From positions 1-49,946 of IMG/VR virus record IMGVR_UViG_3300035670_000314: a DNA stretch of 49,946 nucleotides. One strand, given 5' to 3'. Below are positions 8,516-45,486 of the stretch, one piece after another. Position 1 is the first letter of the stretch; each line of letters starts with the position of its first letter. Source of the stretch: a virus. Both the position numbers and the translations under genes were made by a program. The notes under the pieces were generated by a model. It was not told where the DNA came from, did no database searches, and saw only the letters and a program-made list of their open reading frames with translations.

Positions 8516-9634
8516 TCAGGGTTTGGGTTGGTAGGTGGAGAACCACGCCTTCGCATCCTCTTCGGAGACGAGGGCTTTGTAGTTCGATTCGAGGACGGAT
8601 TCACTGTGCCCCGCCCACGCCGCGGTTCGCGAGGTGCCGTGGATGGTGACGGATGCGGAGACAAAGCCCTTGCGCAGCCCGTTGTCAACCCACTCAACCC
8701 CGGCCGCGGCGGCGACTTTGGCCAGTCGACGACGAAGCCGCTTGGTAACAAAAGGGGTCGATGGGTCTGCTGGATCAACACACTCTCGTGCGTGGCTCAC
8801 CACTTTCCACAGCGCATCCGTCGTGGGTACGAGACGGCGGCGATTGGTTTTGGTGATCGACGAGGAGAGAACCAGCGGATCGACAGGAACCTCGTGGAGA
8901 AAATCCCACACGTCGTCCCAGGTCAATCGCTGAATCTCCTTGGCCCGTGCGCCGGTGTAGGCACCGAGGGCGAGGAAGATGAGGACGTCAGGGTGGTTGA
9001 GCCGGTAGGCGGCGTCGAGGAGGGCGTGAAGCTGTGCCGGGGTGAAGGGGACCGGGTCTTTCACCGGCACCTTGCGCGCCTCGACCTGCTTGGCCGGATT
9101 GATGGTCGCCCCAGAGATTTTACACCAATAGTCGAAAAAGGAGACCAGTGTCGCCCGGTGGGTGTTGGCGGTTTTGGGGGATTCAAAGCAACCGAGGTAG
9201 TGATCGACGGCAGTCCAGGTGATCGCGGCCGGGTCTTGCTCGATGAAGTAGCAGTAGCGGAAAGCGGTGAGGTGCTGCTTGCGGTCGGCGATCGACCGCT
9301 CGGCGAGATTCCGGGTTCGGCAGTGATCGAGGTAACGGTCAATGAGGTCGAGCATGGTGAAGGTGACGACGGGGCGAGCGACTGCCTGTTTGACCGCATC
9401 GATCAGGGAAACGCCGGTTGGCAGCAGTGCCACCGCGGCGTGATACTCCTCGACCTCGCGAGGGGTGAGCGGCTTCTGGCAGCGGGCCAGATATTGCCGG
9501 ATCTCGGCAACCCGATTGTCGGCGACATCGGCTTTCACGGTCTCGCGATGCCGGATGCTGCCGACCCGATAGCGAATCTCGATGCGCCCGTCCTTGGAGG
9601 GGTAGGTCTTGATGGGGTCTTTGGGGGCGGTCAT
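8516..9634 (-). CDS. int: Tyrosine recombinase / integrase
   Basis: A 372-residue site-specific recombinase. The N-terminal domain includes an arm-binding type start (KDGRIEIRYRVG), a SAM-like core-binding domain lies at about 90-185, and the catalytic domain at about 195-365. Catalytic residues: Arg230 (YTGARAKEI), Lys262 (ITKTNRRRL), Arg321, His343 (AGHSES) and Tyr352 (ESNYKAL). The HxxR box reads NGLR, so the first histidine is replaced by Asn318, which some active family members tolerate. It would integrate, excise or resolve phage DNA and suggests a temperate or plasmid-like life style. No attP can be assigned with certainty. Confidence 0.9.
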   Translation of the reverse strand: MTAPKDPIKTYPSKDGRIEIRYRVGSIRHRETVKADVADNRVAEIRQYLARCQKPLTPREVEEYHAAVALLPTGVSLIDAVKQAVARPVVTFTMLDLIDRYLDHCRTRNLAERSIADRKQHLTAFRYCYFIEQDPAAITWTAVDHYLGCFESPKTANTHRATLVSFFDYWCKISGATINPAKQVEARKVPVKDPVPFTPAQLHALLDAAYRLNHPDVLIFLALGAYTGARAKEIQRLTWDDVWDFLHEVPVDPLVLSSSITKTNRRRLVPTTDALWKVVSHARECVDPADPSTPFVTKRLRRRLAKVAAAAGVEWVDNGLRKGFVSASVTIHGTSRTAAWAGHSESVLESNYKALVSEEDAKAWFSTYQPKP

Positions 9635-10206
9635 TTGTCTTCCGTGAGTTCGACGAGTTTGGCTTCGTGCAGGCGGTCTTCCAGTTCAGTGATCCACGCG
9701 TAGGGGAGCTTCTGCCCGGCGGCGACGTAGCGGGTCATGGCGGCGAGGATGTCCGCGGCCCGGTTGCTGGCCCACACGTATTCCGGACAGAGGCCGAGGG
9801 GTGGTTTGGTGTGCTCGGGCTCGGAGGTTTCGATGGGGGCGGGTTCGACTTCGATTTTGCGTCGGTACTCGTCGTGATGCTCCCGTCGAATAGTCCCAGC
9901 GAAAGACGAAATCTTCCAACGAAGCTCGGTAGAATGCCAAAATTCGTCCCCCTTCTGAATGATCTCTCCGACTTTGAGAAGTCGGTAACCGGGGCCGGGA
10001 TTGATGAAGGATGCCGTGTCGATCTTGCGCCGGTAGTACATGCAGTATTCGACGCCGCTGCGGTCGTATTTCTCCCCCGCTTCCTCTGTCGAATGCCACC
10101 CTCCCGAAATCGAACGGAACTCGTCCCCTGCCTTGATGATCTCCCCGACTTTGAGAAGTCGGTAGCCGGGTCCGGGGTCGACAGTGTTGTTGTCGGTGTT
10201 GCTCAT
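9631..10206 (-). CDS. Phage protein with duplicated GYRLLKVGEII domain (191 aa)
   Basis: Two tandem copies of a domain of about 50 residues are visible. Each opens with PGPGYRLLKVGEII, continues with a GDEF and WHSTE block, and ends in a YRRKI strand (residues ~9-60 and ~63-115). Similar GYRxLxxGExIxxGDEF repeats occur in phage proteins of unknown role. The last 70 residues form helices (YVWASNRAADILAAMTRYV). ATG 10204-10206 overlaps the MarR-type gene's stop, so it is read in the same operon. The longer upstream reading is Arg/Pro-rich shadow sequence and was discarded. Confidence 0.8.
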   Translation of the reverse strand: MSNTDNNTVDPGPGYRLLKVGEIIKAGDEFRSISGGWHSTEEAGEKYDRSGVEYCMYYRRKIDTASFINPGPGYRLLKVGEIIQKGDEFWHSTELRWKISSFAGTIRREHHDEYRRKIEVEPAPIETSEPEHTKPPLGLCPEYVWASNRAADILAAMTRYVAAGQKLPYAWITELEDRLHEAKLVELTEDK

Positions 10207-10604
10207 GCTGCTTCCTCTTGGGTGTTGGGTTGGGGTTCGGGAAAAACGGTGGCGCGGGTGCCGGTCAACCGATCGGGGCGGACGATGGCGTGGGCCAGGA
10301 GATCCACGGCTGCGGCGGTGATGGTGATGTCGCGATAGGTGTCCCCGGTCTTCTTCGGGTTGTGGGTGACGAGCCCGGCGTCGACGAGCCTGGTCAACCC
10401 GTCGATCAAACTGCTGGCGTGCAGACCGAGATAGCGGCCCAGGGAGGCGACGGTGACCCGGTCCCCCCTCTGGTTGCCCTCGGCGATCAACAGCAGCATC
10501 AGGATGACGTGAACCGGCAGGCTGCGACTGCGCAGCGGGGAGGGGCACCGGACGATGGCGGCGGTCAAATCAGTCAGGGAAGTGAGCAGGTCGGGGAGTG
10601 TCAT
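10203..10604 (-). CDS. MarR-like winged-helix transcriptional regulator
   Basis: A 133-residue protein. Residues 48-105 read as a winged helix: VTVASLGRYLGLHASSLIDGLTRLVDAGLV followed by a wing (KTGDTYRDITIT). The N-terminal helices would dimerise. As the first gene of a leftward operon that includes the integrase, it is a plausible control protein. A nested inverted repeat 51-75 bases upstream of its ATG could be its operator. No ligand can be inferred. Confidence 0.8.
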   Translation of the reverse strand: MTLPDLLTSLTDLTAAIVRCPSPLRSRSLPVHVILMLLLIAEGNQRGDRVTVASLGRYLGLHASSLIDGLTRLVDAGLVTHNPKKTGDTYRDITITAAAVDLLAHAIVRPDRLTGTRATVFPEPQPNTQEEAA

Positions 10605-10770: not shown

Positions 10771-11073
10771 TCAGCGGGTGCGGGGCCGCGGCGTGGGTCT
10801 CACGTAGGTCCTGGGCAGGTAGATCGGCCGGATGACGACCTTCGGCGGGGGGTCGATGACAGGGGCGACCCGCGGGGTGATGCGAGCGGAGGGGACCGGG
10901 GCCGCGATCGAGGGCATCCCAGTGACCTGTGGAGCCCCGGAGACGATTCGGATCTCGGTGCCGGAGGACAACGGTGCGGCCAGTGGGTTCGACCACCAGC
11001 GAAGCACGTCGTCGGCACGGGCCGGGGCAACGGTCAGAAGGAGGGCGGCGATGACGAGTAGGAGTGCGCGCAT
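10771..11073 (-). CDS. Small exported protein with signal peptide (100 aa)
   Basis: The N-terminus MRALLLVIAALLLTVAPARA is a textbook Sec signal peptide with a probable signal peptidase I cut after ARA, giving a mature DDVLRWWSNPL... of about 80 residues. The mature part is Pro/Arg/Val-rich with no cysteines and ends in a basic RTYVRPTPRPRTR tail. It is transcribed alone, with its own promoter directly before the ATG and a strong terminator after it. A small secreted phage or prophage product could act at the cell envelope, for example in superinfection exclusion, but no family is recognised. Confidence 0.75.
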   Translation of the reverse strand: MRALLLVIAALLLTVAPARADDVLRWWSNPLAAPLSSGTEIRIVSGAPQVTGMPSIAAPVPSARITPRVAPVIDPPPKVVIRPIYLPRTYVRPTPRPRTR

Positions 11074-11078
11074 GGTTT

Positions 11079-11107
11079 ACCCTACAATGAACTGCCGGAT
11101 CGGTCAA
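11079..11107 (-). promoter_or_regulatory. Promoter of the exported-protein gene (leaderless type)
   Basis: On the minus strand, TTGACC (11102-11107), a 17-base spacer and TAGGGT (11079-11084). Five bases separate the -10 from the ATG, so the mRNA would begin at the start codon. The same geometry is seen at 7468, 12024 and 44001. Confidence 0.65.
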
Positions 11108-11265
11108 TGCCGAAGGGAGTTCGGGAGATAGCCCTTTCGGGCTAGAAAAAACCCTAACAAAACTACCACGAAAAGCACTAACAAACACACCAAAAAAGAG
11201 GCGCTCCCGAAAAAGTCCGGTCAATAATGCAAGCCAGTTGCAATAGGACGGGAGATCTCGAAAAA

Positions 11266-11296
11266 TCAGGGAGATCTTTTTTAGGGATCTCCCTGA
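11266..11296. repeat. 11-bp perfect inverted repeat with AGATC core
   Basis: Arms TCAGGGAGATC (11266-11276) and GATCTCCCTGA (11286-11296) enclose TTTTTTAGG. The right-arm sequence recurs with extra flank at 11508-11530 as the inverted match of 11256-11280, so the motif is iterated and not a single hairpin. Confidence 0.75.
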
Positions 11297-11648
11297 CTTG
11301 GGCCCTTAGTGAGATCAAGGAAAACCGGTCAAGGCCGGGAGATCATGGGGACACTTCAACTTCTGTTTTCTACGGTCAATGTAGGCGATTCCGTAACTAG
11401 ACGAACCCGTCTTTTAAGAGGGGAAAAACTATTCTTCTTTTATAAGGTTCCTCCTCCCTCTCCCTAATGTTCAACGACTTAACCCCGATTTCGCATTTTT
11501 CGCCCAGAAAAGATCTCCCTGATTTTCGAGCTTTTGTGTGCGTGTTAGGGCCGTTGAACGCTGACGCCATGCGGGCTGCGGGCCGGAGGGTTTTGACCGG
11601 ACCCTAACAAAGCAACCTCCCGTTTGGTTGCCCGGATCGGGCGTTTGA

Positions 11649-11766
11649 CCTACTGCCATAAGGCTTCCAGCCGATTTTATCCTAACAAAAAACAAATGGG
11701 GTTTTTGGCCGGAAAGCTCCGATTCAAAAAAGACCCCTGATCGGCTGGAACGTAGGTGGCAGTAGG
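11649..11766. repeat. Large imperfect stem-loop (118 bases)
   Basis: CCTACTGCCA (11649-11658) pairs with TGGCAGTAGG (11757-11766), and TTCCAGCCGAT (11665-11675) pairs with ATCGGCTGGAA (11740-11750). The two helices are stacked with a small internal loop and capped by about 64 bases containing CCTAACAAA and a GGGGTTTTT run. Its size and perfection argue for selection, for example as a replication initiation structure or a structured RNA. Confidence 0.7.
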
Positions 11767-11885
11767 GCTGCGTCCGATGTGTGAACCCCATTAATTCCAG
11801 ATGGTTCGAGCAGCCGGGAGATGGCGGGAGAAAACGGGAGGTTGTTTTGTTAGGATTCAAAAGATCTCCCGTTTACCATTTACCA

Positions 11886-11928
11886 TAAAAACAAAAAACC
11901 CAGTAGAGGGACGCATCCCCCTACTGGG
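11886..11928 (-). terminator. Leftward rho-independent terminator
   Basis: On the minus strand, CCCAGTAG/CTACTGGG (11921-11928 with 11899-11906), extended inside by GGG/CCC, is followed by a T-rich run (TTTTTTGTTTTTAT). A second perfect hairpin, GGACTCCC-GAGT-GGGAGTCC, lies just before it at 11931-11950. No protein gene ends here, so it may close a short untranslated transcript or shield the region from antisense reading. Confidence 0.75.
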
Positions 11929-12023
11929 CTGGACTCCCACTCGGGAGTCCGGTTCTCGTTCTTTGTCCACCCGAACCACACCTCATGGGTTTGGTTTGGA
12001 CCGGACGGTAGCCCGGATCGAGC

Positions 12024-12052
12024 TTGACCGCAAGAGGTATTTGTTATAGAGT
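12024..12052 (+). promoter_or_regulatory. Promoter of the HAD phosphatase gene (leaderless type)
   Basis: TTGACC (12024-12029), a 17-base spacer and TAGAGT (12047-12052), with ATG 6 bases further on. An overlapping TTATAG could serve as an alternative -10 with a shorter spacer. Confidence 0.6.
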
Positions 12053-12058
12053 GAAAGG

Positions 12059-12523
12059 ATGAGCGAACCCGTATCCCACCCAGGACTCCTTGCTGGCGTC
12101 CCAATCGCCGTCGACTTCGACGGAACCTGCGTCACCCACGAATACCCGCGGGTCGGCCGCGAGATCGGAGCGGTCCCTGTCCTGCGCCGGATCGTCGCCG
12201 AGGGAGGTCAACTGATCCTCTGGACGATGAGAAGCGGCGACAAGCTCGAAGACGCCGTTGCGTGGTTCGTCAATCACCAGATTCCCCTCTACGGCATCCA
12301 GAGAAACCCGACCCAGGACAACTGGACAGAGAGTCCCAAAGCCTACGCCAAGATCTACATCGATGACGCGGCGCTCGGATGCCCGCTCAAATCAGGGCAC
12401 CCCGGTGAAAGGCCCCACGTCGACTGGGATGCGGTTTCCCGGATCTTGTTCGGCTCGGGATTCGTTACTGCGAGCACGGGACCCGGGCCTGTTGGTCCGA
12501 TCGGAAGCACAGGTCCCTGTTGA
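12059..12523 (+). CDS. HAD-superfamily phosphatase-like protein
   Basis: A 154-residue protein. Motif I is AVDFDGTCV, with nucleophile Asp19 and Asp21. Motif II lies in LILWTMRSG, Lys94 or Lys98 could be motif III, and motif IV is IYIDDAALG with Asp102 and Asp103. This compact cap-less HAD type is frequent in phages and may hydrolyse nucleotide or sugar phosphates. The last 20 residues are a collagen-like GPGPVGPIGSTGPC tail, unusual for an enzyme. It is the first rightward gene after the control region and appears monocistronic. A weak hairpin with six Ts at about 12549-12575 may end the transcript. Confidence 0.85.
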   Translation: MSEPVSHPGLLAGVPIAVDFDGTCVTHEYPRVGREIGAVPVLRRIVAEGGQLILWTMRSGDKLEDAVAWFVNHQIPLYGIQRNPTQDNWTESPKAYAKIYIDDAALGCPLKSGHPGERPHVDWDAVSRILFGSGFVTASTGPGPVGPIGSTGPC

Positions 12524-13655: not shown

Positions 13656-13684
13656 TTGACGTGTACAAATTTGTATATAAGGGT
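13656..13684 (+). promoter_or_regulatory. Promoter-like element with internal operator palindrome
   Basis: TTGACG (13656-13661), then the perfect palindrome TACAAATTTGTA (13664-13675), with AAGGGT at 17-base spacing or TATAAG closer in. An A/T-rich stretch precedes the -35. It would drive the small-gene array beginning at 13740; the 5' leader contains a CCCCG-ATAG-CGGGG hairpin. Confidence 0.5.
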
Positions 13685-13739
13685 ATAAGCCCCGATAGCG
13701 GGGACGGGGAAACCCGTTCAAATCAACCTACCTGAATCC

Positions 13740-14033
13740 ATGAAAATCGATCATTACCCTACTCTGTCAGAAGTGCCCTCCCTCGCGTTCAACCTGGGCG
13801 GAGGATACAATGCGAAAGGTCAACAATGCGCGGCTGCGCTCATCGCACCGGGGCTTGTCCTCTTTGTGGACATCGCCCGGGGGCTTGACTACATTTTCGC
13901 TTGTGACTTGACCGTCTCAGCGATCCGACACGCTTACCTCAACAATCAATCCGTGTTTCTCCCCTATGCGGAGGGGTATTATGACCTCCGGAATGACCTC
14001 GAAACGCTCGCCGCTACCGCCCCCGCCCGTTAA
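13740..14033 (+). CDS. Small protein of the array, unknown (97 aa)
   Basis: First gene of the rightward small-gene array. MKIDHYPTLSEVP opens an alpha/beta-looking protein with FNLGGGYNAKGQQCAAALIAPGLVLFVDIA and a C-terminal helix (YDLRNDLETLAATA). There is no signal peptide or membrane helix. The start is ATG after ACCTGAATCC, no Shine-Dalgarno. Function unknown; as in the rest of the array, the sequence gives no catalytic motif. Confidence 0.7.
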   Translation: MKIDHYPTLSEVPSLAFNLGGGYNAKGQQCAAALIAPGLVLFVDIARGLDYIFACDLTVSAIRHAYLNNQSVFLPYAEGYYDLRNDLETLAATAPAR

Positions 14034-14091
14034 TCTGAACCTCACCGGCACGCAATCCCGCGCACCGGCCACCCTATACCCTGACAAAATT

Positions 14092-14592
14092 ATGAAATTC
14101 CAGCACGCCAAAATCGGCACCGTTTCCCACGGCGCTCTACGCCCCGAAGACCTGATTTCCACCTTCGCGGACGAAATTGAGGGCTTGACTCTCATCAACG
14201 GGGGTTTCCTCGCCCTTCCCGAGTCGCATCAAACCCGCGACTATCTCGCCCGGGTCCACGGTGAAGCATGCGACGCTTTCGCGGAGGACGGGGAAACGCT
14301 CGAATACGAAGACGACGCCCCGGAATTGATCGATAAATTGATTTCCGCCCTCGACACCTTCGCGCCCCCTTACTGTTACTTTGGCGCGCATCCCGGGGAC
14401 GGGTCCGATTTCGGCTTTTGGCCTTTCGAGGATTGGCGCGAACAAGCCGAAGACGACGAAACACCCATTACCGAAGGGGAGCCGGAAGCCGATTATCAGG
14501 GAACCTGGTTTTCCATCTCCGATCATGGGAACGTCACCTGCTACCTTCGCGACGACTCCGGAGCCGATACGGAGCTTTGGTCTATGGTTTGA
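14092..14592 (+). CDS. Array protein, acidic, unknown (166 aa)
   Basis: An acidic protein with an N-terminal helical half (EDLISTFADEIEGLTL), a middle Asp/Glu-rich segment, a GAHPGDGSDFGFWP motif and a C-terminal strand pair (GTWFSISDHGNVTCYLRDDSG...ELWSMV). I recall similar ISDHGN-type ends in uncharacterised plasmid and phage proteins, but no function. The longer in-frame reading is rejected because ATG 14092 follows CCCTGACAAAAT, the array's usual start context. The 3' flank carries the first two-hairpin element. Confidence 0.75.
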   Translation: MKFQHAKIGTVSHGALRPEDLISTFADEIEGLTLINGGFLALPESHQTRDYLARVHGEACDAFAEDGETLEYEDDAPELIDKLISALDTFAPPYCYFGAHPGDGSDFGFWPFEDWREQAEDDETPITEGEPEADYQGTWFSISDHGNVTCYLRDDSGADTELWSMV

Positions 14593-14613
14593 TCGATCCC
14601 CGCTTTCTTATAT

Positions 14614-14666
14614 CCCGCCCGGCCCCGGATTCTTTCCGGGGCCGGAGGGGGTGAAAGAATCACCCG
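14614..14666 (+). promoter_or_regulatory. Two-hairpin intergenic element 1
   Basis: Hairpin A is GGCCCCGGA/TCCGGGGCC (14621-14629 with 14635-14643). Hairpin B is GGGTGA-AAGAA-TCACCC (14649-14665). It is preceded by CCCGCCC, and the next ATG lies 24 bases after hairpin B. There is no T-run, so it is not a terminator. Confidence 0.65.
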
Positions 14667-14689
14667 CTAAACCACTACCTGACAAATAC

Positions 14690-14944
14690 ATGAAAAAGCC
14701 GATCAACGTTCGAGACTACAAAGGGGACACTTTCAACCCCGCACCTGAGACAGTGGAAACCGTCGCGCGGACCCTCTACCCTCAACAAATCGGGAACTTC
14801 TGCCCGGTTTTTTGCCGCTACAAGGGGCGCACCTATCAAGTTCAGTCGGAAGCGGGCGACTTGTCCGACCCTTTCCGCGCGGATGGCTCCTACCTGGAAA
14901 CCCTCTATATCGACCTCGCCCGGCCTTGCCAGTGGAGCCTGTAA
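14690..14944 (+). CDS. Array protein, unknown (84 aa)
   Basis: MKKPINVRDYKGDTFNPAP starts a small protein with PQQIGNFCPVFCRYKGRTYQVQSE and a C-terminal YLETLYIDLARPCQWSL. Three cysteines and many aromatic residues suggest a compact beta-rich fold; the family is unknown. The start follows ACCTGACAAATAC, typical of the array, and was chosen over longer in-frame readings that run through the structured element upstream. Confidence 0.7.
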   Translation: MKKPINVRDYKGDTFNPAPETVETVARTLYPQQIGNFCPVFCRYKGRTYQVQSEAGDLSDPFRADGSYLETLYIDLARPCQWSL

Positions 14945-14954
14945 GCCCTCTCAC

Positions 14955-15008
14955 CCCGCCCCCTTTCCCGTCGATCGGTGAAAGGGGAGGGGGTGAAAGA
15001 ATCACCCG
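14955..15008 (+). promoter_or_regulatory. Two-hairpin intergenic element 2
   Basis: Hairpin A is CCCCTTTC/GAAAGGGG (14960-14967 with 14980-14987), with an inner CCG/CGG. Hairpin B is GGGTGA-AAGAA-TCACCC (14991-15007). The next ATG is 21 bases downstream. Confidence 0.7.
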
Positions 15009-15028
15009 CTTAACCATACCCTGACAAA

Positions 15029-15337
15029 ATGAGAAAATTTGAGATTACCGTTCAACCGCAGCGCCGCCTTTTCCGTTGCGAAAAGATGCGCGACGAAAAC
15101 GCCCGGGGCCTTTACGGCTTTCACAGCTACGACAAGTGCCCCGATTGCAAGGTGACTCTTGACGGGTTCGCCTTGTGGGGTGAAAACGGGCACCTGCAAG
15201 GTGTCCTTTACCGTGACGAGCGGCCCACGGAAGCCGATCTAAAAGAATGGGCGGACCGGGTAAACCGCTACGCGCATCACCCCGCAGAATACGTTTTCCG
15301 CCACCGCGAGCAAGGGCACACTTACCTGGCAAACTGA
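15029..15337 (+). CDS. Array protein, unknown (102 aa)
   Basis: MRKFEITVQPQRRLFRCEKMRDENARGLYGFHSYDKCPDCKVTLDGF... contains Cys17, Cys37 and Cys40 (CPDC), possibly part of a metal or redox site, and a helical, basic C-terminal half (EADLKEWADRVNRYAHHPAEY). Starts with CCCTGACAAAATG, no Shine-Dalgarno. The family is not recognised. Located between elements 2 and the small gene at 15366. Confidence 0.72.
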   Translation: MRKFEITVQPQRRLFRCEKMRDENARGLYGFHSYDKCPDCKVTLDGFALWGENGHLQGVLYRDERPTEADLKEWADRVNRYAHHPAEYVFRHREQGHTYLAN

Positions 15338-15365
15338 ACCCCGCACCCATCACCCCGCCCATTAC

Positions 15366-15485
15366 ATGAAATCCTCGCCCATCTCCCCCGCCACCGCCCG
15401 CCGGGTTTTTCCCCGGGTCCGTGAAACCCTTTCACGATCCGCGCGCCGTCTCTTGGCTTTGACCGTCGCCGGGATTGAAATTTAA
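15366..15485 (+). CDS. Possible small basic peptide (39 aa)
   Basis: MKSSPISPATARRVFPRVRETLSRSARRLLALTVAGIEI, cited here as a whole only by its features: an Arg/Ser-rich helix and a short hydrophobic end. The ATG follows CCCGCCCATTAC, similar to other starts of the array, and the stop lies directly before the promoter at 15495. Part of it overlaps a GC-rich hairpin (CCGGG/CCCGG), so the stretch may be an untranslated element instead. Confidence 0.35.
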   Translation: MKSSPISPATARRVFPRVRETLSRSARRLLALTVAGIEI

Positions 15486-15494
15486 AATTCCCGA

Positions 15495-15522
15495 TTGACC
15501 TCACGACAATTAACCATAGAAT
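15495..15522 (+). promoter_or_regulatory. Promoter inside the small-gene array
   Basis: TTGACC (15495-15500), a 16-base spacer and TAGAAT (15517-15522), with the next ATG 10 bases on, so the leader would be only a few bases. Upstream, AAATTTAAAATTCCCG repeats exactly the sequence before the promoter at 17071, suggesting a shared UP-type element. Confidence 0.7.
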
Positions 15523-15532
15523 AAATACAGAT

Positions 15533-15850
15533 ATGAAAATCACGCCACGTTGCCCCTCCGCCGCCCGTCTCCGTGCAATCGGAGTCGATTACCCCGAAAA
15601 GTTCCGCGCCCGTGCAAAACAGGGCTTTGAATGGAACCGCTACGACGGGCACAAGTCGCACGCCGTCGCCGCGTTCCTGGAAGAGCTAAACGCGCTTTCC
15701 GGCCACTACGGGGTTGAATCGCTCTTTCACGACGGCAACCCTGATTTGTGGTATCTGAACGCGGGAGACGTTTACACCGCTACCGTCTTTTATAACTCCG
15801 CCACCGATAACCTTTTAATTTCCGACCTGGGGACCGTTATCGGCGGCTAA
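15533..15850 (+). CDS. Array protein, unknown (105 aa)
   Basis: MKITPRCPSAARLRAIGVDYPEKFRARAKQ begins a protein with a basic helical N-terminus, AVAAFLEELNALSGHYGVESLFHDG in the middle and a strand-rich C-terminus (DVYTATVFYNSATDNLLISDLGTVIGG). It has the look of a small alpha/beta sensor-like domain but no known signature. It is transcribed from its own promoter and followed by element 3. Confidence 0.72.
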   Translation: MKITPRCPSAARLRAIGVDYPEKFRARAKQGFEWNRYDGHKSHAVAAFLEELNALSGHYGVESLFHDGNPDLWYLNAGDVYTATVFYNSATDNLLISDLGTVIGG

Positions 15851-15859
15851 CCCCTTCCA

Positions 15860-15919
15860 TCCCGCCCGCCCTTTCCCGGTTGATCGGTGAAAGGGCGGAG
15901 GGGGTGAAAGAATCACCCG
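15860..15919 (+). promoter_or_regulatory. Two-hairpin intergenic element 3
   Basis: Hairpin A is CGCCCTTTC/GAAAGGGCG (15867-15875 with 15889-15897). Hairpin B is GGGTGA-AAGAA-TCACCC by position (15902-15918). Compared with element 2, the stem has changed base while keeping its pairing. The next ATG is 25 bases downstream. Confidence 0.7.
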
Positions 15920-15943
15920 CTTAACCTGATACCCTAACAATAC

Positions 15944-16624
15944 ATGAAAATTCCGACTAGCTATCAAGACGCCGCCGCCTACCTGGGGCGAAAAACCGAC
16001 CGTCCCGCCGCCAATAACACCCGCGTCCAGTTGCGCGACGGCGGGAAAATTGCCCTCCGCCTCCACGGAACCGACGTGGTGACCTGGAACCCGGACGGCT
16101 CCGCCGTGTTGAACTCCGGAGGCTGGCGCACCGTCACCACAAAAGCCCGGATCAATGACGCCACCCCGGCCCGCCTTTACCAGAAGGGCGGTATCTGGTA
16201 TCACCGCGACGGGCACCCCTTCGCGGACGGGGACACGATCAACCCGGACGGCTCCCGCCTGGTTTCCCTCGCCGCCCCGGACGCGGTGAAAGAAGCGCGG
16301 GAGCTTTCCCGCCGGATCGCGAAGTATTCGCGTGACCTCGCCGCCGCGCTCCCCCTCCCGCACCCCTCCGGCGGTGACTGCTTCTTTTGCTCCATGTTTC
16401 CCGACACCCCGGGCGAGTGTGACGCGGGCCACCTCGAAAGCCACATGGAGGAAAGCTATTTTGTCCCATCGCTCGCCCTTCGCGCCCTCCGTGAAGCGAA
16501 AGAGAACGATTTGATTATTGCGGCATCCTTTGAAGAGGCGGGACGGTGGACGGAGCTTGCACGGGAGCGCACCGGCAAAGCGGTGCGGAACTACCTCAAG
16601 CGTCGCCTTTCCCTTGCCCGTTGA
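15944..16624 (+). CDS. Conserved mobile-element protein of unknown function (226 aa)
   Basis: The N-terminal 100 residues belong to a family I recall from many phages: YLGRKTDRPAANNTRV, RLHGTDVVTWNPDG, SGGWRTVTTKARIN. A strand-rich repeat follows (GGIWYHRDGHPFADGDTINPDGSRL). The C-terminal half is helical with a Cys/His cluster (CFFCSMF...CDAGHLESHMEE) that could bind zinc. The function is unknown; its spread across phages and plasmids suggests a general anti-host or accessory role. It starts after CCCTAACAATAC. Confidence 0.82.
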   Translation: MKIPTSYQDAAAYLGRKTDRPAANNTRVQLRDGGKIALRLHGTDVVTWNPDGSAVLNSGGWRTVTTKARINDATPARLYQKGGIWYHRDGHPFADGDTINPDGSRLVSLAAPDAVKEARELSRRIAKYSRDLAAALPLPHPSGGDCFFCSMFPDTPGECDAGHLESHMEESYFVPSLALRALREAKENDLIIAASFEEAGRWTELARERTGKAVRNYLKRRLSLAR

Positions 16625-16637
16625 TCGCGCGAAGTGT

Positions 16638-16690
16638 CCCGCCTACCCTCCCGGATCAGTCCGGCGAGGGTAGCGGGGGCAAGTCGCCCG
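16638..16690 (+). promoter_or_regulatory. Two-hairpin intergenic element 4
   Basis: CTACCCTC/GAGGGTAG (16643-16650 with 16666-16673), inner CCGGA/TCCGG and outer CCCGC/GCGGG, then GGGC-AAGTC-GCCC (16677-16689). The ATG follows after 26 bases. Hairpin B differs in sequence from elements 1-3 but keeps position and shape. Confidence 0.65.
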
Positions 16691-16715
16691 ATTGAACCCT
16701 AACCGATCAACCAAA

Positions 16716-17018
16716 ATGAAAACCAAAGTCATCTTCCGCAAGTGGAAAGGAACGGGCGACGTGATCGCCCTGTTTCCCGAAGTCCCCGGCACCGTCAACC
16801 CCGCGCATTGCCTCAGTTACGAAAGGCACGGGCAACACGGGGCCGCGCACCTGGCCGGAGTCATCGCCAACACGCGCCCCGCATCGCCGGAGGAAAGCGC
16901 CGACCTGGCCCGCGAGCTTGAGCGGATCGGCTATGAACTGGAACCCGTGACCCGCACCCCGGGCAATGCCTGGGACACGCGCCGCGTTGAAATCTCCCGC
17001 TATCACTCCGCCGCCTGA
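16716..17018 (+). CDS. Conserved mobile-element protein of unknown function (100 aa)
   Basis: MKTKVIFRKWKGTGDVIALFPEVPG followed by CLSYERHGQHGAA matches a small family I recall from phages and plasmids, with the pattern KVIFRKxKxxGDVIALFP and C-SY-x-GQH. A helical C-terminus (EESADLARELERIGYELEPV) follows. It is soluble, with no catalytic motif recognised. ATG 16716 is preferred to an upstream ATG at 16692 because it follows CAACCAAA and begins the conserved block. Confidence 0.8.
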   Translation: MKTKVIFRKWKGTGDVIALFPEVPGTVNPAHCLSYERHGQHGAAHLAGVIANTRPASPEESADLARELERIGYELEPVTRTPGNAWDTRRVEISRYHSAA

Positions 17019-17070
17019 TCCCCCGGCTGAATCCGCCCGGCACCACGGAAAAGAAATTTAAAATTCCCGC

Positions 17071-17099
17071 TTGCATCTCTCACCCTTTTACGCTACAAT
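17071..17099 (+). promoter_or_regulatory. Promoter inside the small-gene array
   Basis: TTGCAT (17071-17076), a 17-base spacer and TACAAT (17094-17099), preceded by AAATTTAAAATTCCCG as at 15495. It serves the gene at 17132 with a short leader. Confidence 0.7.
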
Positions 17100-17131
17100 T
17101 AATTGTTACCTGAACCCTACACCCTGACAAA

Positions 17132-17593
17132 ATGAAAAAGACCATCACCGAAAAACGCGCCGCCGCCTCGCTGGCGCACCTGTCCGATCCCGCCGCCGTG
17201 GAGACGTTCGCGGTTGACTGGAAAAAGTCCCGCACCTGGGACTACACCGCCAGCGTGAACACTTACCACGGACGCGCCGCCCTCGCGAGCGGTTGCGGAT
17301 ACGACAAACTCTCCGCCGTCGTCGTCGAATACCTCTGCGAGGCTCCGGCCCCGGAACTCGTGGAAGCGATTCGCGGTTGTGGGGGTGCCGGGATCAATTC
17401 CGTAATCAACAAGGCCCGCGCCGCCGGTTGGAACCTGGAACACGTCCACAACGGGACGGTGACCGATACCTTCCGCCTCTCCCGCATCGCTCCGGTTGCC
17501 CCCGTCCCGGCACCCCTCGCCGCTCTTCGTCATCACGTCACCGGAGCGATTGAACGGGGCGAGGCGCAAGCCATCACCGAAATGCCCGCCTGA
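17132..17593 (+). CDS. Array protein, unknown (153 aa)
   Basis: The N-terminus is basic and helical, with ALASGCGYDKLSAVVVEYLCEA in the middle, then ELVEAIRGCGGAGINSVINKARAAGWNLEHVHNGTVTDTFRLSRI. The GAGxxSVxxAxxxxGWxLE pattern resembles a conserved phage/plasmid protein I cannot name. The Pro/Ala-rich tail is probably disordered. Starts with CCCTGACAAAATG. Confidence 0.75.
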   Translation: MKKTITEKRAAASLAHLSDPAAVETFAVDWKKSRTWDYTASVNTYHGRAALASGCGYDKLSAVVVEYLCEAPAPELVEAIRGCGGAGINSVINKARAAGWNLEHVHNGTVTDTFRLSRIAPVAPVPAPLAALRHHVTGAIERGEAQAITEMPA

Positions 17594-17595
17594 CA

Positions 17596-17646
17596 CCCCG
17601 ACTGTTCCTTCGCACCTTGCGAGGGAACAGAGGGGGTAGCAGTCCG
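17596..17646 (+). promoter_or_regulatory. Intergenic hairpin element 5
   Basis: CTGTTCC/GGAACAG (17602-17608 with 17624-17630) with inner TCGC/GCGA. It is followed by AGGGGGTAGC; hairpin B is not clear here. It occupies the same position as the other elements in the array. Confidence 0.55.
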
Positions 17647-17678
17647 CGCCCATCTTCACCCCATACCCCTACCACATT

Positions 17679-18068
17679 ATGAAACCTGCTATTGAAGCCC
17701 GTTGTCTCCGTCACGCCGCCGCCTTGGCGGAACTGTTCCCGAACGCTACCAAGTCCGGGCTGGATTTGTGCCGCGCCTTGCGCCGGATCGAGGCGCGCGC
17801 CCATCGCGCCGCCACCGATTACTGCAACGGCGACATCTCCACGGATCAATGGGAAGGGGTTCACGATCAATTCCACGGGAAAGTCGCGGACCTCCTCAAC
17901 CCGTCGATCGAACTCGCCAACGCGATTTTTATCGACGGCGATCCGCGCGGCTACGCGCTCAAACTGGACGACGCGTTCACCCGCGAGCACAACCAGACCG
18001 CGAAGACGCCCATCCATACCGATTGGGGCGGCTACGGAATCCTGGCCCCCGACCTCACCGAAGGCTAA
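17679..18068 (+). CDS. Conserved mobile-element protein of unknown function (129 aa)
   Basis: A helical N-terminal half (LRHAAALAELFPNATKSGLDLCRALRRIEARAHRAATDY) is followed by a C-terminal signature GDPRGYALKLDD...HTDWGGYGILAPDLTEG, which I recall from uncharacterised phage and plasmid proteins. The DPRGYALK and DWGGYGI blocks are the likely functional site, though no reaction is known. The ATG at 17679 follows CCTACCACATT. Confidence 0.8.
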   Translation: MKPAIEARCLRHAAALAELFPNATKSGLDLCRALRRIEARAHRAATDYCNGDISTDQWEGVHDQFHGKVADLLNPSIELANAIFIDGDPRGYALKLDDAFTREHNQTAKTPIHTDWGGYGILAPDLTEG

Positions 18069-18074
18069 CCCCTT

Positions 18075-18120
18075 GCGCCCCGTCCGGCCCCGGGCTTTGT
18101 GCCTGGGTCCGGCGGGGGCG
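18075..18120 (+). promoter_or_regulatory. Intergenic hairpin element 6
   Basis: A nested stem: GCCCCG/CGGGGGC (18077-18082 with 18113-18119), CCGG/CCGG (18084-18087 with 18109-18112) and an inner CCGGGC/GCCTGG. It is followed by GAAAGAGTAATCCGC, a diverged form of the hairpin B region, and a CCTGACAAAATG start. Confidence 0.6.
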
Positions 18121-18159
18121 AAAGAGTAATCCGCCCGGCACCCTTAACCACCTGACAAA

Positions 18160-18756
18160 ATGAAAGTTGAATTGACCCTGCAAGACGCAACGGAACGCGC
18201 CGTGTTCCTGACCAACGCGAACGGATACGACGTTGCCATGATTACCCGCCTCGATTTGGGCGATAACCCGAACACGCCGGAGCCGGAATTTTTGACCGGC
18301 GAACAGTGGCAAGGGTTGATCGATCAAATCGCGGAAATCTTCCCGGCCCCGCCGAAGAAAGAATTGACCCACACCGAATTGATCGAGGCCCTTCGCCTCG
18401 CCGCCCCTTCCGTCTCCATCACCACGGAATGGGAACACGACGACGATTGCGCCGGGGATTGGCGCGAACTCTCCCGCCCCGGTAACTGCTTCCACGGCGA
18501 GGACCGCGACGACTGGGAGTGTTGGCAAAGCACCGTCACCGCCCGCGCCATCGTCAACGGCGAGATGATCGAGGGCGAGGACTATCTTGGCGGAACCTGG
18601 GAGAAATACGGTGACAACCCGGCAAAGACCAACCCCGACATCTCCGGTTACTTCCCCGGCATGGCGCTGAACGCATTGACAGAACTGCAAAGCCAGATTC
18701 CCGCCGGATACCGCTCTCTCGCCCGTGAGATCAACGCCGCGCTTGAACTTCTCTGA
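18160..18756 (+). CDS. Conserved mobile-element protein of unknown function (198 aa)
   Basis: The N-terminal region is mixed. The middle region has ITTEWEHDDDC and DDWECWQSTVTARAIVNGEMIEGEDYLGGTWEKYGDNPAKTNPDISGYFPGMALNALTELQ, where the YLGGTWEKxGDNPAxxNPxISGY block recalls a recurring phage/plasmid family. It is very acidic, with two to three cysteines in the centre. It shares a transcript with the two following genes. The function is unknown. Confidence 0.8.
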   Translation: MKVELTLQDATERAVFLTNANGYDVAMITRLDLGDNPNTPEPEFLTGEQWQGLIDQIAEIFPAPPKKELTHTELIEALRLAAPSVSITTEWEHDDDCAGDWRELSRPGNCFHGEDRDDWECWQSTVTARAIVNGEMIEGEDYLGGTWEKYGDNPAKTNPDISGYFPGMALNALTELQSQIPAGYRSLAREINAALELL

Positions 18757-18768
18757 CCTTCACACACC

Positions 18769-18951
18769 ATGCGAAAACTTTTCTACCTCATGGACAACGT
18801 TGGCCGCGCCCGCTACACCGTGAACACTCACGACGGCGAGTCAACGCACCCCGACGGGAGCCCCTTCTACGGGATCGCGATCTTTCACAACAAACGCAAG
18901 CGCGATCGCTTTGTCCGTGACCTCAAGCGGGCCGGATACTCTGAACGCTGA
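18769..18951 (+). CDS. Small conserved mobile-element protein (60 aa)
   Basis: A basic protein with YTVNTHDGESTHPDGSPFYGIAIF and a helix NKRKRDRFVRDLKRAGY. The THxDGSPFxxIxIFxNKRK pattern matches small proteins I recall from plasmids and phages with no assigned role. It begins 12 bases after the preceding stop, so it is co-transcribed, and it is too short to be an enzyme. Confidence 0.78.
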   Translation: MRKLFYLMDNVGRARYTVNTHDGESTHPDGSPFYGIAIFHNKRKRDRFVRDLKRAGYSER

Positions 18952-18979
18952 ACCACCACACCCCTAACAACCTGACAAA

Positions 18980-19387
18980 ATGAAAAAGTCCTTCTGTTTC
19001 TATCCTGTTTCTTCCCGCTACGGCGCACCAATGGGCCGACAAAACCAGATGCCCGATCCCGACGACGCCCCGGTCAAGCTCCGCCTCTGCCGTGCCCGGT
19101 GGGTTGACGGGGATTACGATCAGGGCGGCGCATACTGGGGCGGAGGAGGGCACGGGGACATTTACTGTGGCTACTCCGTGCGTCTGGGAATTCGGATCTA
19201 CGCCCGGGGTAAAAGCGAAGGGGAAGCGGCGGCGAAGATCCTCGATTGTTGCCCGACCGGCTCGACCTGCGGAACTCGCTACCTCCCCTTCCCCGGAGCC
19301 CCTCACGCCCCGCGCCCGGACGTGGAAGAAATGCAGCGGCAGATGTGCGCCGCGTTCTCCGGTCACCTCGACAAATCCAAAGATTGA
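18980..19387 (+). CDS. Array protein, unknown (135 aa)
   Basis: Starts MKKSFCFYPVSSRYGAPMGRQNQMP; the middle has VDGDYDQGGAYWGGGGHGDIYCGYSVRLGIRIYARGKSEGEAAAKIL and six cysteines in total (FCF, RLC, YCG, CC, TCG, MCA). The RYGAPMGR and GGAYWG blocks look conserved. It could be a small metal-binding or disulfide protein. Starts after CCCTAACAACCTGACAAA. Confidence 0.75.
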   Translation: MKKSFCFYPVSSRYGAPMGRQNQMPDPDDAPVKLRLCRARWVDGDYDQGGAYWGGGGHGDIYCGYSVRLGIRIYARGKSEGEAAAKILDCCPTGSTCGTRYLPFPGAPHAPRPDVEEMQRQMCAAFSGHLDKSKD

Positions 19388-19395
19388 TTCCCGTC

Positions 19396-19428
19396 CCGCC
19401 CTTCCGTTGAATCCGCGCGGGAGGGCGG
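19396..19428 (+). promoter_or_regulatory. Intergenic hairpin element 7
   Basis: CCGCCCTTCC (19396-19405) pairs with GGGAGGGCGG (19419-19428), with one G-T pair, and outer bases add CCCGC-type pairing. Hairpin B is replaced by an A/T-rich stretch leading into the promoter at 19452. Confidence 0.6.
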
Positions 19429-19451
19429 CGGGGAGTCAATCAAAAATAAAA

Positions 19452-19479
19452 TTGACGCCACCGTAATTAGTTCTACAAT
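19452..19479 (+). promoter_or_regulatory. Promoter of the last array gene
   Basis: TTGACG (19452-19457), a 16-base spacer and TACAAT (19474-19479), preceded by an A-rich upstream stretch. The ATG is 25 bases downstream. Confidence 0.7.
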
Positions 19480-19504
19480 TAATCCTAAACCCAAACCTGA
19501 CCCT

Positions 19505-19951
19505 ATGAAAGAAATTCTCCAATACCAAACCAAAGACGGACGCGTCTTCAACACCGCCGAAGCGGCGCGGGATCACGAGACCCTCGTTGCCCGTATCGAA
19601 GCCATCATGGCCCCGCTCGGGGACACCCACCCCGACGTGAAGGACGGCAAGGGATGGGTCCAGCACGACCTCGAAACCGTGAACCGGGCCAAAGATCAGA
19701 TCATCCATATCGGGAAAGAGAAAGGACTCTTCCGTGCGTTCGATCATATTCAACGCGCCCTCGGTCGGGAACTTCACCCGTTTTCTTTGGCTGGTCGCAT
19801 CCTGGACGATCACGGCGGACCTCTCGCCCATGCGTGGGCTCGCTTCGGTCGGATCGACGAACAGGGGCGCGAGCACCAGCAGCCTTTCTACGCATACACC
19901 AACGGACCCCTTCCGGAGCACGTCCTCATCGAAGACCGTCGCCGCGCCTGA
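19505..19951 (+). CDS. Conserved mobile-element protein of unknown function (148 aa)
   Basis: Recognised from memory by its pattern: KDGKGWVQHDLETVNRAKDQIIHIG, then HPFSLAGRILDDHGGPLAHAWARFGRIDEQGREHQQPFYAYTNGPLPE. Related proteins occur in phages and integrated elements without known function. Conserved His, Asp, Gly and Arg residues in GRILDDHGGP and the GREHQQPF block suggest a binding pocket. Starts after ACCTGACCCT. Confidence 0.8.
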   Translation: MKEILQYQTKDGRVFNTAEAARDHETLVARIEAIMAPLGDTHPDVKDGKGWVQHDLETVNRAKDQIIHIGKEKGLFRAFDHIQRALGRELHPFSLAGRILDDHGGPLAHAWARFGRIDEQGREHQQPFYAYTNGPLPEHVLIEDRRRA

Positions 19952-27708: not shown

Positions 27709-28060
27709 CCCACCCAAAAAATCTCCCTTTGTTGTCACCGAGAAAGCGATGAGACCCGCTTCCGATCTGCCTCGGTGTTTCTACTGCCACCAGCCGATCG
27801 GTGATTTCCATTTGGAAACGTGCGGGTTGGTTTGTAAAAAAGTGGTTGTCCGTCTCACGATTGAATACCCGGTCAAAGTCCCCGCTTCTTGGGATGCACA
27901 CATGGTCGAGTTTCACCGCAACGACGGGACCTGGTGTGCCAACAACTTGGTCGACGAACTCGAAGCACTGACCGAGGAACTTGGGGAATCCCGTTGCTTA
28001 TGCAGCGCCGCCCACTACGACTACGTCGACGACATGACCGAAGCCTACCTTTCTGAATGA
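27701..28060 (+). CDS. Conserved phage protein with N-terminal zinc-type site (119 aa)
   Basis: Cys26, Cys29 and Cys41 (RCFYCHQPIGDFHLETC) suggest a zinc ribbon. A strand-rich block then reads VVVRLTIEYPVKVPASWDAHMVEFHRNDGTWCANNLVDELEAL, which I recall from small phage proteins of unknown role. The start at 27701 overlaps the end of the XRE gene, and the stop overlaps the helicase ATG. It may be a helicase partner by context. Confidence 0.78.
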   Translation: MIDPPKKSPFVVTEKAMRPASDLPRCFYCHQPIGDFHLETCGLVCKKVVVRLTIEYPVKVPASWDAHMVEFHRNDGTWCANNLVDELEALTEELGESRCLCSAAHYDYVDDMTEAYLSE

Positions 28061-30618
28061 TGATTGAAACCTCCGCCCCCGAGGAAACCGAAATCCCCGA
28101 ACTCTCCGACGAACAGGAACTCGCTCTGGTCAAGATCGTCCAGGGAAAGAACCTGCTCATCACCGGCAACGCAGGGACCGGCAAGTCCACCCTGATGCGC
28201 CGGGTCATCGAGTTGATCGGCCCCGCCGTCGCCGCGTCAACCGGAGTCGCCGCTCTGCAAATCGGGGGCGAGACCATTCACAGTTGGTCGGGGATTGGCA
28301 TCATGGAACACACCGCGGCTGAGGTGGTGCGAAACCTGGAGGGTCGCGCCCGGCAGTGGGGTGACCAGACCCTCGCCCGCATGATCGCGGCGAAGACGAT
28401 CATCATCGACGAGATCTCCATGCTCTCGTCCGAAGCCCTCGACCTCCTTGACGCCGTGCTCTGCCTCGCCCGGCAGGATGAGCGCCCCTTCGGTGGGTTG
28501 CAGATGGTATTTTGTGGCGATTTTTGTCAGTGCAGTCCGGTTGATCGAAGCGGTCGAGCCAAGTTCGCGTTCAAGGCGAAGGCGTGGGAAGACGCCGGGA
28601 TCGAGGTCGCCCTCCTCACGAAAGTTTTCCGGCAGGAAGAGGAGCGGTTCAGCCGGGTCCTCAACCACATCCGCTTCGACCGGATGAACGACGAGGTCGA
28701 GGACTTTCTGCGCGAGCGGTTCGCCGCCGAGGACCCGGACCCGACGCGACCGGCTTGCATTTTGCACACCCACAACGACAAGTGCGACCAGGTCAACCGG
28801 GCCATGCTGCGGGATCTCCCCGGTGCCGCGATCGAGTTGAAGGCGCGGGACGAGGGCAAGCACGAGAACTTCGTGAAGCAGATCGAGCGCGATTGCCTCG
28901 CCCCCACCGTCCTCTCGATCAAGCCCGGTGCCCGGGTCATGCTGCTGGTCAACCTCGACACCCGCGGCGGGCTCGTGAACGGATCGATGGGTCACGTCAT
29001 CGGGGCCGGGATGGCGGGGGTGCGGGTTCGCTTCGACAACGGCCGCGAGGAGTTGATCGAGCGGAAGGAGTGGGAGTTCAAGAAGGGTGGCGTCATCGTC
29101 GCCCGGAGAGCCCAGTTCCCCCTGCGCCTCGCCCGCGCCGTCACGATCCACAAGTGCGTCGCTGCGGACACTCGAATACCCACGACCAAAGGGCTTTTGA
29201 AAATGAGCCAAGTGGTAAGGGAGCCAGAAGGGCTACGGGTTTTCGGGGAGACTCAAGAAAGAGATGTGTCAGGTAGCTACGTGAGCGGGCGAGAGTTAGG
29301 CTATCGGATTACTACTGAGCGTGGATACTCGTTACTTTGTTCGGAGCGACATCCGTTGATGGTTTACCGCGAAAGTGGGAGAGAGTGGGTCAAAGCCCCG
29401 GACCTGCGCCTCGGGGACCATGTGCGACTTCGAACCAATACGCGGGCCGAAGGGGTAGGCAGAATTGATTCATTCGTCCTCCGTGAGCAGTATCACACGA
29501 GCAAGGATTACCGGGTTCCTTCGGAGATGACTCCTGAATTAGCGTGGTTGATAGGAGCCGTTCTCGGGGACGGGTGCGTTACTGACCAGAGAGACGGGCG
29601 AGTTGACATAACAAATCCTGACTCGGAAGTGATTGATCGTTTTGAGAAAATAGCCACGGATGTTTTTGGGGTGGCGGTAACAAGGCGAGCAGTGCCAGGA
29701 GCGACCCTCGTTTACTTCCACAGCAAAGGCGTGAGGGACTTCCTACTTTTCTTGGGGGTGGGATACAATAAAGCGGCGGGCAAGGCAACTCCGGAGGTGA
29801 TCTACCAGTCTCCAATCGCGTCGCAAGCCGCGTACTTGCAGGGGTTGTTTGACACGGATGGCGGGGCCAATAAAGCAGGAATTCATTTTACCAGTATGTC
29901 GAGAGACTTGATCCGATCGGCGCAAGAACTGTTGGCTAACCTCGGAGTTGTGTCGAGCATTTCTCGTGTCGGGCAAGCGCAGCGAGTGACAGTTATGGGA
30001 CCAGCAATCGCAGACTGGTGTCGCGAAGTAGGGTTCTCCGTGGCACGTAAGCAGCGAGGAGCGGAAGTGCTGCGGGAACGGTCGGCTCGGTGTCGGACCC
30101 CGAAAAACAATTACGGAGGACTCCCCAACGGAAAGGTGATTTTGGAACAGATCAAAGCAGGGCTAGATAAAGACTCGCGGGGTCGGATCTCATCGAAGTA
30201 TGCTGATTGGCGGGGGTATCTTAGCCGGGTTAAATGCGGGGTGTCCTCGTTGACCGACACCGCGCTCGCCCGGTTTGCCGAAGAGTTTCCTATCGAGCAA
30301 GAAGACGTGCTTCGCGCAACATCCGGCGGTTTCGTGGACAAGGTCAAAAGCATCGATCGCGAGTATGCGGAGATGATGGACATTGAAGTGCCGGAAGAAC
30401 ACGTGTTCATTGGAGGGGTGTTCGTGAACCACAATTCGCAGGGCATGACCCTCGACAAGGTCGAGACCGACCTCTCGCGCTGCTTCACCCCCGGGCAAGC
30501 CTACGTCGCCCTCAGCCGCGCGAGAACGAGCGAGGGTCTCTTCCTCCGGGGAACCGGCGTCACGATCGAGGCGCACCCGGAAGCGGTGAAATTTTACCAA
30601 CAGCATTGTCAGGGATGA
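28057..30618 (+). CDS. Pif1-like DNA helicase interrupted by an intein
   Basis: The mature extein (about 426 residues) is a superfamily 1 helicase of the Pif1/RecD group: Walker A GNAGTGKST at 37-45, IIIDEISML (Asp118-Glu119), GGLQMVFCGDFCQ, and a TIHK-SQGMTLDKV box followed by YVALSRART. It would unwind DNA 5'-3' during replication or recombination. An intein of 427 residues splits the TIHK/SQG motif between Lys366 and Ser794. It starts with ATGA overlap from the preceding gene and ends overlapping the next one. Confidence 0.92.
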   Translation: MMIETSAPEETEIPELSDEQELALVKIVQGKNLLITGNAGTGKSTLMRRVIELIGPAVAASTGVAALQIGGETIHSWSGIGIMEHTAAEVVRNLEGRARQWGDQTLARMIAAKTIIIDEISMLSSEALDLLDAVLCLARQDERPFGGLQMVFCGDFCQCSPVDRSGRAKFAFKAKAWEDAGIEVALLTKVFRQEEERFSRVLNHIRFDRMNDEVEDFLRERFAAEDPDPTRPACILHTHNDKCDQVNRAMLRDLPGAAIELKARDEGKHENFVKQIERDCLAPTVLSIKPGARVMLLVNLDTRGGLVNGSMGHVIGAGMAGVRVRFDNGREELIERKEWEFKKGGVIVARRAQFPLRLARAVTIHKCVAADTRIPTTKGLLKMSQVVREPEGLRVFGETQERDVSGSYVSGRELGYRITTERGYSLLCSERHPLMVYRESGREWVKAPDLRLGDHVRLRTNTRAEGVGRIDSFVLREQYHTSKDYRVPSEMTPELAWLIGAVLGDGCVTDQRDGRVDITNPDSEVIDRFEKIATDVFGVAVTRRAVPGATLVYFHSKGVRDFLLFLGVGYNKAAGKATPEVIYQSPIASQAAYLQGLFDTDGGANKAGIHFTSMSRDLIRSAQELLANLGVVSSISRVGQAQRVTVMGPAIADWCREVGFSVARKQRGAEVLRERSARCRTPKNNYGGLPNGKVILEQIKAGLDKDSRGRISSKYADWRGYLSRVKCGVSSLTDTALARFAEEFPIEQEDVLRATSGGFVDKVKSIDREYAEMMDIEVPEEHVFIGGVFVNHNSQGMTLDKVETDLSRCFTPGQAYVALSRARTSEGLFLRGTGVTIEAHPEAVKFYQQHCQG
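29155..30435 (+). mobile_element. Intein with LAGLIDADG endonuclease domain
   Basis: Residues 367-793. Begins with Cys367 in CVAADTRIPTTKG (block A) and includes GYSLLCSERHPLMVY (block B). Two LAGLIDADG helices, LAWLIGAVLGDG (495-506) and YLQGLFDTDGG (593-603), follow; the end is HVFIGGVFVNHN with the terminal His792-Asn793 and Ser794 as the +1 residue. All splicing residues are present, so it should splice. It is visibly less GC-rich and richer in AGA/AGG and A/T-ending codons than the helicase, showing separate ancestry. Confidence 0.93.
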
Positions 30619-44695: not shown

Positions 44696-45486
44696 AACGC
44701 CCGGTGACTTATGGCAAATCCAGGAAGTTGAACGAACTCGCCATCGGGTGTCCGGTAGATCCCGTATTGTATCTGGAGGTGGTTAAAACAAAGTTGTTCC
44801 CCATGTAGCCCTTCTCCCAAAGGAATTGACGTCGCGGTCGCCGTCGCCACAAATTGCCAAAGAGGGTAGTGCCTTTCGACAAAAGCAAAATCTTCCCCTC
44901 CCATACTGCCTGTATAAGACACTTGATACCCGTCCGCTTCTGGCCAAGCATTAAGCAACACCACTTCGTAGCTAGTTGGTTCTTCGGAAGTGATCTTAAC
45001 GGCAAAAATCTGGTCAGCTTCGACAGAATACGTCTCCGATGGATTGGAACAGGTCAACACTTGCGAGACACTATCCCCGCTTTTGAGGACCGACCCCACG
45101 TTCACGACAAACTCTCCCGGGTCCCCCGAAGGGATTAATGCCCACGGACCGAGGTTGCTTTTTACCACCGGAACTTCCCGTCGCAAACTGCGCCCGCCCC
45201 GACGACCGGTTTGGGTGATTGAAAACTTCCCGTCCCGCCCGAAAATTTGGGTGCCGCCGGGGGACGAGAACACCATGGCATTGTTCGCTTCTTTGATCTT
45301 GGTGCCAATCAACTCAGTCAGCGCATCGAAGCGGGCCTCCGGTCCGTTGTTCCCGGCGAGGTCCGCTTCGTAGGCGCGGGCAACGGTCTGCTTGGGAGAC
45401 AAGCCCCCCTTGGCTCCTTCGAGAGACCCTGTCTCTAAGCCCTGCTTCGGCTGCGCCTTCCGGATGTTCGACTCCTCTTCCATCAC
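44692..45486 (-). CDS. Unknown virion-module protein (264 aa)
   Basis: A charged N-terminal helix (KAQPKQGLETGSLEGAKGG...) is followed by helices with ARFDALTELIGTKIKEANNAM. After that comes a beta-rich domain (GPWALIPSGDPGEFVVNVGSVLKSGDSVSQVLTC...) and an aromatic C-terminus (YGIYRTPDGEFVQLPGFAISHRAL). It is likely a tail or baseplate-type component. ATGA overlaps on both sides. Confidence 0.65.
   Translation of the reverse strand: MMEEESNIRKAQPKQGLETGSLEGAKGGLSPKQTVARAYEADLAGNNGPEARFDALTELIGTKIKEANNAMVFSSPGGTQIFGRDGKFSITQTGRRGGRSLRREVPVVKSNLGPWALIPSGDPGEFVVNVGSVLKSGDSVSQVLTCSNPSETYSVEADQIFAVKITSEEPTSYEVVLLNAWPEADGYQVSYTGSMGGEDFAFVERHYPLWQFVATATATSIPLGEGLHGEQLCFNHLQIQYGIYRTPDGEFVQLPGFAISHRAL

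Follow-up and report, generated by a model that had tools for sequence, protein, structure and literature searches.

Seven gaps between small genes of the uncultured phage IMGVR_UViG_3300035670_000314 (gaps A, B, E, F, H, I and L; 14605-19441, + strand) carry the same element, an interrupted hairpin of 20-26 bp that keeps its pairing while most of its sequence changes. We tentatively interpret these elements as intercistronic mRNA boundary signals, probably processing sites for a double-strand-specific (RNase III-type) nuclease, an interpretation that draws on analogy with other phages and to which we give somewhat less than even confidence. The window analyzed here is the whole record of 49,946 bases, which may itself be a fragment, and all evidence on the element comes from seven copies in this one virus.

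The virus and its small-gene array

Recognisable genes in the window are very few: a helicase-nuclease, a Pif1/Dda helicase, an amidase endolysin, a tyrosine integrase and a 3120-aa virion protein. The Pif1/Dda-like helicase (28057-30618) contains an intein with a LAGLIDADG domain. Neither phage records nor viral contigs yielded a close relative of the virus, and a protein-based search of viral contigs with the 226-aa, 3120-aa and 60-aa proteins recovered no relatives. The 60-aa protein (18769-18951) had matches in the plasmid collection only on Alteromonas mediterranea megaplasmids (55% identity), where they sit in another array of small hypothetical genes.

The array of small co-directional genes occupies 13740-19951 (+ strand), and only a few of its genes belong to a known family. 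A ACCCTGACAAA-ATG start-site leader recurs in the array genes without a Shine-Dalgarno sequence; a search for the leader pattern MCCTGACAAAATGAAA returned 52 single matches and no kin. The array is preceded by a divergent promoter region (13656-13689) with a perfect 12-nt palindrome, TACAAATTTGTA, which is likely a repressor operator. The leader of the first array gene holds two small hairpins (CCCCG-ATAG-CGGGG and CGGG-GAAA-CCCG; 13690-13717, + strand), related in layout to the element without being a full copy. Farther upstream, about 1 kb without called genes (11074-12058) is flanked by divergent genes, is AT-richer and contains several long inverted repeats as well as repeated CCTAACAAA words; it may hold a structured RNA, an attachment site or an origin.

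An earlier sequence-only reading had proposed that at least seven gaps of the array share one layout and divide it into repeated cassettes. This was borne out, and the stems that it quoted are all present where it placed them. The elements, all on the + strand, are A (14605-14659, 22 bp, core CCC at 14614 and GGG at 14648), B (14948-14999, 20 bp, core at 14955 and 14990), E (15854-15910, 22 bp, core at 15861 and 15901), F (16625-16691, 25-26 bp, core at 16638 and 16676), H (17590-17642, 20-21 bp), I (18072-18124, 20 bp, core at 18079 and 18115) and L (19382-19441, 25 bp). Aligned copies share the core YCCC-G[CTA]-(variable upper stem)-[AC]G-GGGR, with one additional base in the 5' loop of L. 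On the transcribed strand the distance from stop codon to element is 3-22 nt in all seven copies, and the next ATG follows 39-46 nt downstream of the element in six of them, while in L a promoter-like site intervenes.

Both strands of the 50 kb were scanned with a descriptor (CCCGN, a stem of at least 7 bp with one mismatch, NNGGGG), which recovered six of the seven copies and three weak stray matches; L was missed because of its extra loop base. A covariance model, R1, matched all seven copies in the window and, weakly, a site at 45222 that lies antisense inside a gene (25.8 bits) and was judged a chance match. The 3' arms of A, B and E are identical and these copies may be recent duplicates; since they are partly identical, the number of independent copies is nearer five.

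One interrupted hairpin with two covarying stems

Each copy has as its minimum-energy fold a single interrupted hairpin, in which an upper stem of 9-13 bp is separated by a 2x2 internal loop from some 6 bp that surround the CCC/GGG core. Below the core pairs, most copies have a small mismatch and then a few further pairs. The lower stem runs back towards the upstream stop codon; the lower arm of H and the 11-bp lower stem of L reach into it. When roughly 20,000 segments of 66 nt were folded across both strands, the 21 with the lowest energy included all seven elements. All seven form hairpins of at least 20 bp, whereas of the 141 other same-strand gaps of comparable size, drawn from the rest of the window and from other arrays, only 20 reach 18 bp. 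Folding energy showed a slight preference for the + strand, which is not decisive for a role as RNA.

Covariation had been claimed for the first stem, and both the arm-swap permutations and counts of pair changes place it above chance. In the arm-swap test, each copy's own 3' arm was compared with the 3' arms of the other copies over 5040 permutations. In the upper stem 60 of 63 positions were paired against a permuted mean of 45.6, and the only two permutations that did equally well were the identity and one tie (A/I). In the lower stem 49 of 70 positions were paired (mean 34.3), with six equally good permutations, all of them ties arising from the identical 3' arms of A, B and E. Both stems thus pass the test as strongly as seven copies permit. 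In an unguided MAFFT alignment, 10 of 15 pairs changed on both sides against a mean of 4.7 in shuffled alignments, and pair counting gave 15 two-sided changes against 5.3 (0 of 500 shuffles as high); pairing collapsed in every slid register, and RNAalifold on an unguided alignment recovered the same lower stem. A first MAFFT alignment with long flanks had misaligned the arms and was discarded.

The two-hairpin drawing of the sequence-only reading did not hold as the best fold, as a single interrupted hairpin whose lower stem covaries was better in all seven copies. Its second hairpin, GGGTGA-AAGAA-TCACCC, is exact in A (14649-14665), B (14991-15007) and E (15902-15918) and not in the other four, and likewise the 21-26 nt given from there to the ATG apply to A, B and E (24, 21 and 25 nt) and not elsewhere. 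F has a GGGC/GCCC counterpart (16677-16689), and weak hairpins analogous to that of F occur in I (18116-18136) and L (19432-19459), all on the + strand. The second hairpin is best regarded as a competing fold, because the minimum-energy hairpin takes the same GGGTGAAAG as its lower arm. It is 1.4-7 kcal/mol less stable than the long hairpin, and against shuffled sequence it reached p = 0.04 in L, 0.11-0.13 in A, B and E, 0.17 in F, 0.28 in I and 0.55 in H.

The elements are not ordinary terminators, as had been proposed. The T-run that marks an intrinsic terminator is absent after the stem in all seven, while T-run terminators exist elsewhere in the same genome (22778, + strand; 10721, - strand). 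Six of the seven element gaps contain no promoter. The exception is L, directly 3' of which the promoter scan placed TTGACG-16-TACAAT (19452-19479, + strand). Two other gaps (15487-15532 and 17019-17131) contain promoter-like sites and no hairpin, namely TTGACC-16-TAGAAT from the promoter scan (15495-15522, + strand) and TTGCAT-17-TACAAT (17071-17099, + strand), which was found by eye and is absent from the scan list. The hairpin therefore seems to mark gaps within a transcript and not transcript starts. A possible 39-codon gene (15366-15485) lies directly 5' of the promoter-like site at 15495 and explains why this gap looks long. With seven gaps on the same strand, six of them without a promoter behind the hairpin, co-transcription across the element gaps is likely. 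Some array gaps (12-58 nt) lack an element, so any processing would be partial.

Related arrays and known RNA elements

No Rfam family matched the window at the gathering score, and relaxing the threshold to E <= 5 returned no ribozyme, only chance-level miRNA matches and one flavivirus element. Exact or gapped patterns of the element, searched for in viral contigs, gave chance-like matches among those listed, with no second copy and no array. Through a conserved motif in the array gene at 14092-14592 we located 39 viral and 4 genome loci that contain this gene, many in similar arrays. The element was found in none of these loci, nor in the other viruses examined. The covariance-model search suggested for further copies likewise turned up nothing significant when R1 was run on 45 loci and 7 whole genomes or records.

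Different RNA structures occupy the corresponding position in some of these arrays. One viral array sharing the 14092-14592 gene family (L012) holds five Twister-P5 ribozymes (9761-9830, 10431-10485, 10816-10870, 11443-11500 and 12360-12420, + strand; 45-60 bits), and another (L013) holds a Hammerhead_II ribozyme (11680-11749, + strand) that follows a stop codon by 2 nt and precedes the start of the next gene by 44 nt. The leader that follows the latter has no Shine-Dalgarno sequence and resembles the leaders in our window. The ribozymes of both arrays begin at or very near the stop codon of the upstream called gene, and those inspected in detail leave about 30-45 nt to the start that follows. 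They thus take the same slot as the elements, with several copies in one array; in contrast, the elements have no ribozyme core. The viruses that carry these ribozymes have only one array gene in common with the virus studied here. The occurrence of ribozymes in the same slot of two other arrays suggests that cutting between such array genes is a recurrent solution. In a third array (L032), three interrupted intergenic hairpins (17246-17423, 17751-17821 and 18002-18047 in locus coordinates, - strand) share GGTG-(variable stem)-CATCC with a conserved GG-TG/CA-TCC loop and have no Rfam match, and a fourth (L041) contains two copies of another motif.

Among characterized phage signals, the RNase III sites of T7 are similar to the elements in that they, too, are irregular hairpins, about 20 bp long and containing an internal loop, that recur between the genes of polycistronic mRNAs. 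The T7 copies have a common upper-stem sequence, whereas the stems of the elements vary around a conserved CCC-GN/NG-GGG. Control gaps from T7, which we take to be the R sites (the record annotation does not name them), were folded in the same way and in some cases gave hairpins of comparable length. RNase III-type helices span about 20 bp or more and may include an internal loop; the 20-26 bp of all seven elements fall in this range. Among the window proteins that were compared with Pfam, none was recognised as a homologue of RNase III. The put RNA of HK022, a phage RNA with two hairpins like those originally drawn for this array, is an antitermination element located early in its operon. The elements differ from put in occurring once per gene and in folding best as one hairpin.

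A putative processing signal and its alternatives

Of the roles raised by the sequence-only reading (processing sites, translation-control hairpins and protein-binding sites), processing is the best supported, by position and by analogy. A translation-sensing switch appears unlikely. Here the 3' lower arm would pair either with the 5' arm beside the stop codon or with the downstream segment (the second hairpin), and a ribosome ending the upstream gene would cover the 5' arm and flip the fold, coupling neighbours by attenuation or reinitiation. The two folds are indeed mutually exclusive and close in energy, the stop codon is not far from the 5' arm and A, B, E, F, I and L have some alternative pairing. 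However, except in L the second hairpin is no better than in shuffled sequence, neither fold hides the start site, and without a T-run the switch has no obvious output. We consider it similarly unlikely that the elements are binding sites for a phage- or host-coded regulator of the array, comparable to the ESAS/SAS repeats of cluster K mycobacteriophages, which are also repeated imperfect inverted repeats with a variable spacer before small non-structural genes. A short conserved core (CCCGN...NGGGG) that encloses a variable inner stem and recurs ahead of many small non-structural genes would suit such a role, and ESAS has the same genomic habit (PMC3203893). Yet few letters are conserved, and ESAS arms are a conserved 17-bp sequence adjoining the 13-bp SAS (GGGATAGGAGCCC) at the start codon (PMC3203893), whereas the arms of the elements differ between copies, mainly pairing is kept and the leader contains no SAS. 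Less likely again are partial terminators, pause sites or antitermination signals by which transcription would be graded along the array: strong GC hairpins lie directly 3' of stop codons and L lies before a promoter-like site, but the T-runs of the genome's evident terminators are missing and, in the six gaps without a promoter, the downstream genes need read-through.

The remaining possibilities rank lower. Ordinary GC-rich 3' hairpins, duplicated by chance in one genome and limited to mRNA stability, could account for the identical 3' arms of A, B and E; the other four copies differ in both stems and yet keep internal loop, spacing and pairing, which makes this improbable. Only slightly more doubtful is a new minimal class of RNA, self-cleaving or cleaved by a phage nuclease, that separates array genes as an equivalent of the twister and hammerhead ribozymes. 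That the elements are strictly an undescribed class of small self-cleaving ribozyme is very improbable. Their slot and array type are those of Twister-P5 and Hammerhead_II, and there is a precedent in pistol, hatchet and twister-sister, which were discovered by searching the neighbourhoods of phage genes linked to known ribozymes (PMC4604425), but the conserved unpaired positions number only about four, known ribozymes have more of them, and even the relaxed Rfam search found no ribozyme. Equally remote is a role at the DNA level as folded single-strand recombination sites (attC-like) for the exchange of gene cassettes. One hairpin per gene in uniform orientation among unrelated small genes, and a tyrosine recombinase encoded at 8516-9634, would fit it; by eye, however, the R''/R' cores of attC (RYYYAAC/GTTRRRY) were not seen at the hairpin ends of most copies and no consistent attC-type core sites emerged, the stems include G-U pairs and the integrase resembles an ordinary phage integrase.

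For an RNase III-type processing site, we envisage that the elements would act in the transcript and not as terminators. Most probably a host double-strand RNase would cut or trim the message at the hairpin, the remaining stem would protect the 3' end of the upstream gene, and the downstream gene would keep its own short unstructured leader (ACCCTGACAAAATG). The sequence itself shows the element, how it pairs, where it lies, and that T-runs (in all seven gaps) and promoters (in six) are missing. We infer cleavage, the enzyme and an effect on expression from where the element sits; this is where other phages have transcript-cutting signals, and it probably marks cutting or protection of the message. 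Protection of the 3' end without cutting is a close alternative that predicts nearly identical anatomy.

It is not settled which role self-cleaving ribozymes play in the genomes of phages (PMC6155905), and the Twister-P5 series is consistent with a transcript-separating role for them. If structures as unrelated as ribozymes and interrupted double-strand hairpins occupy the same gap between small genes, their common job is probably to separate the messages of those genes.
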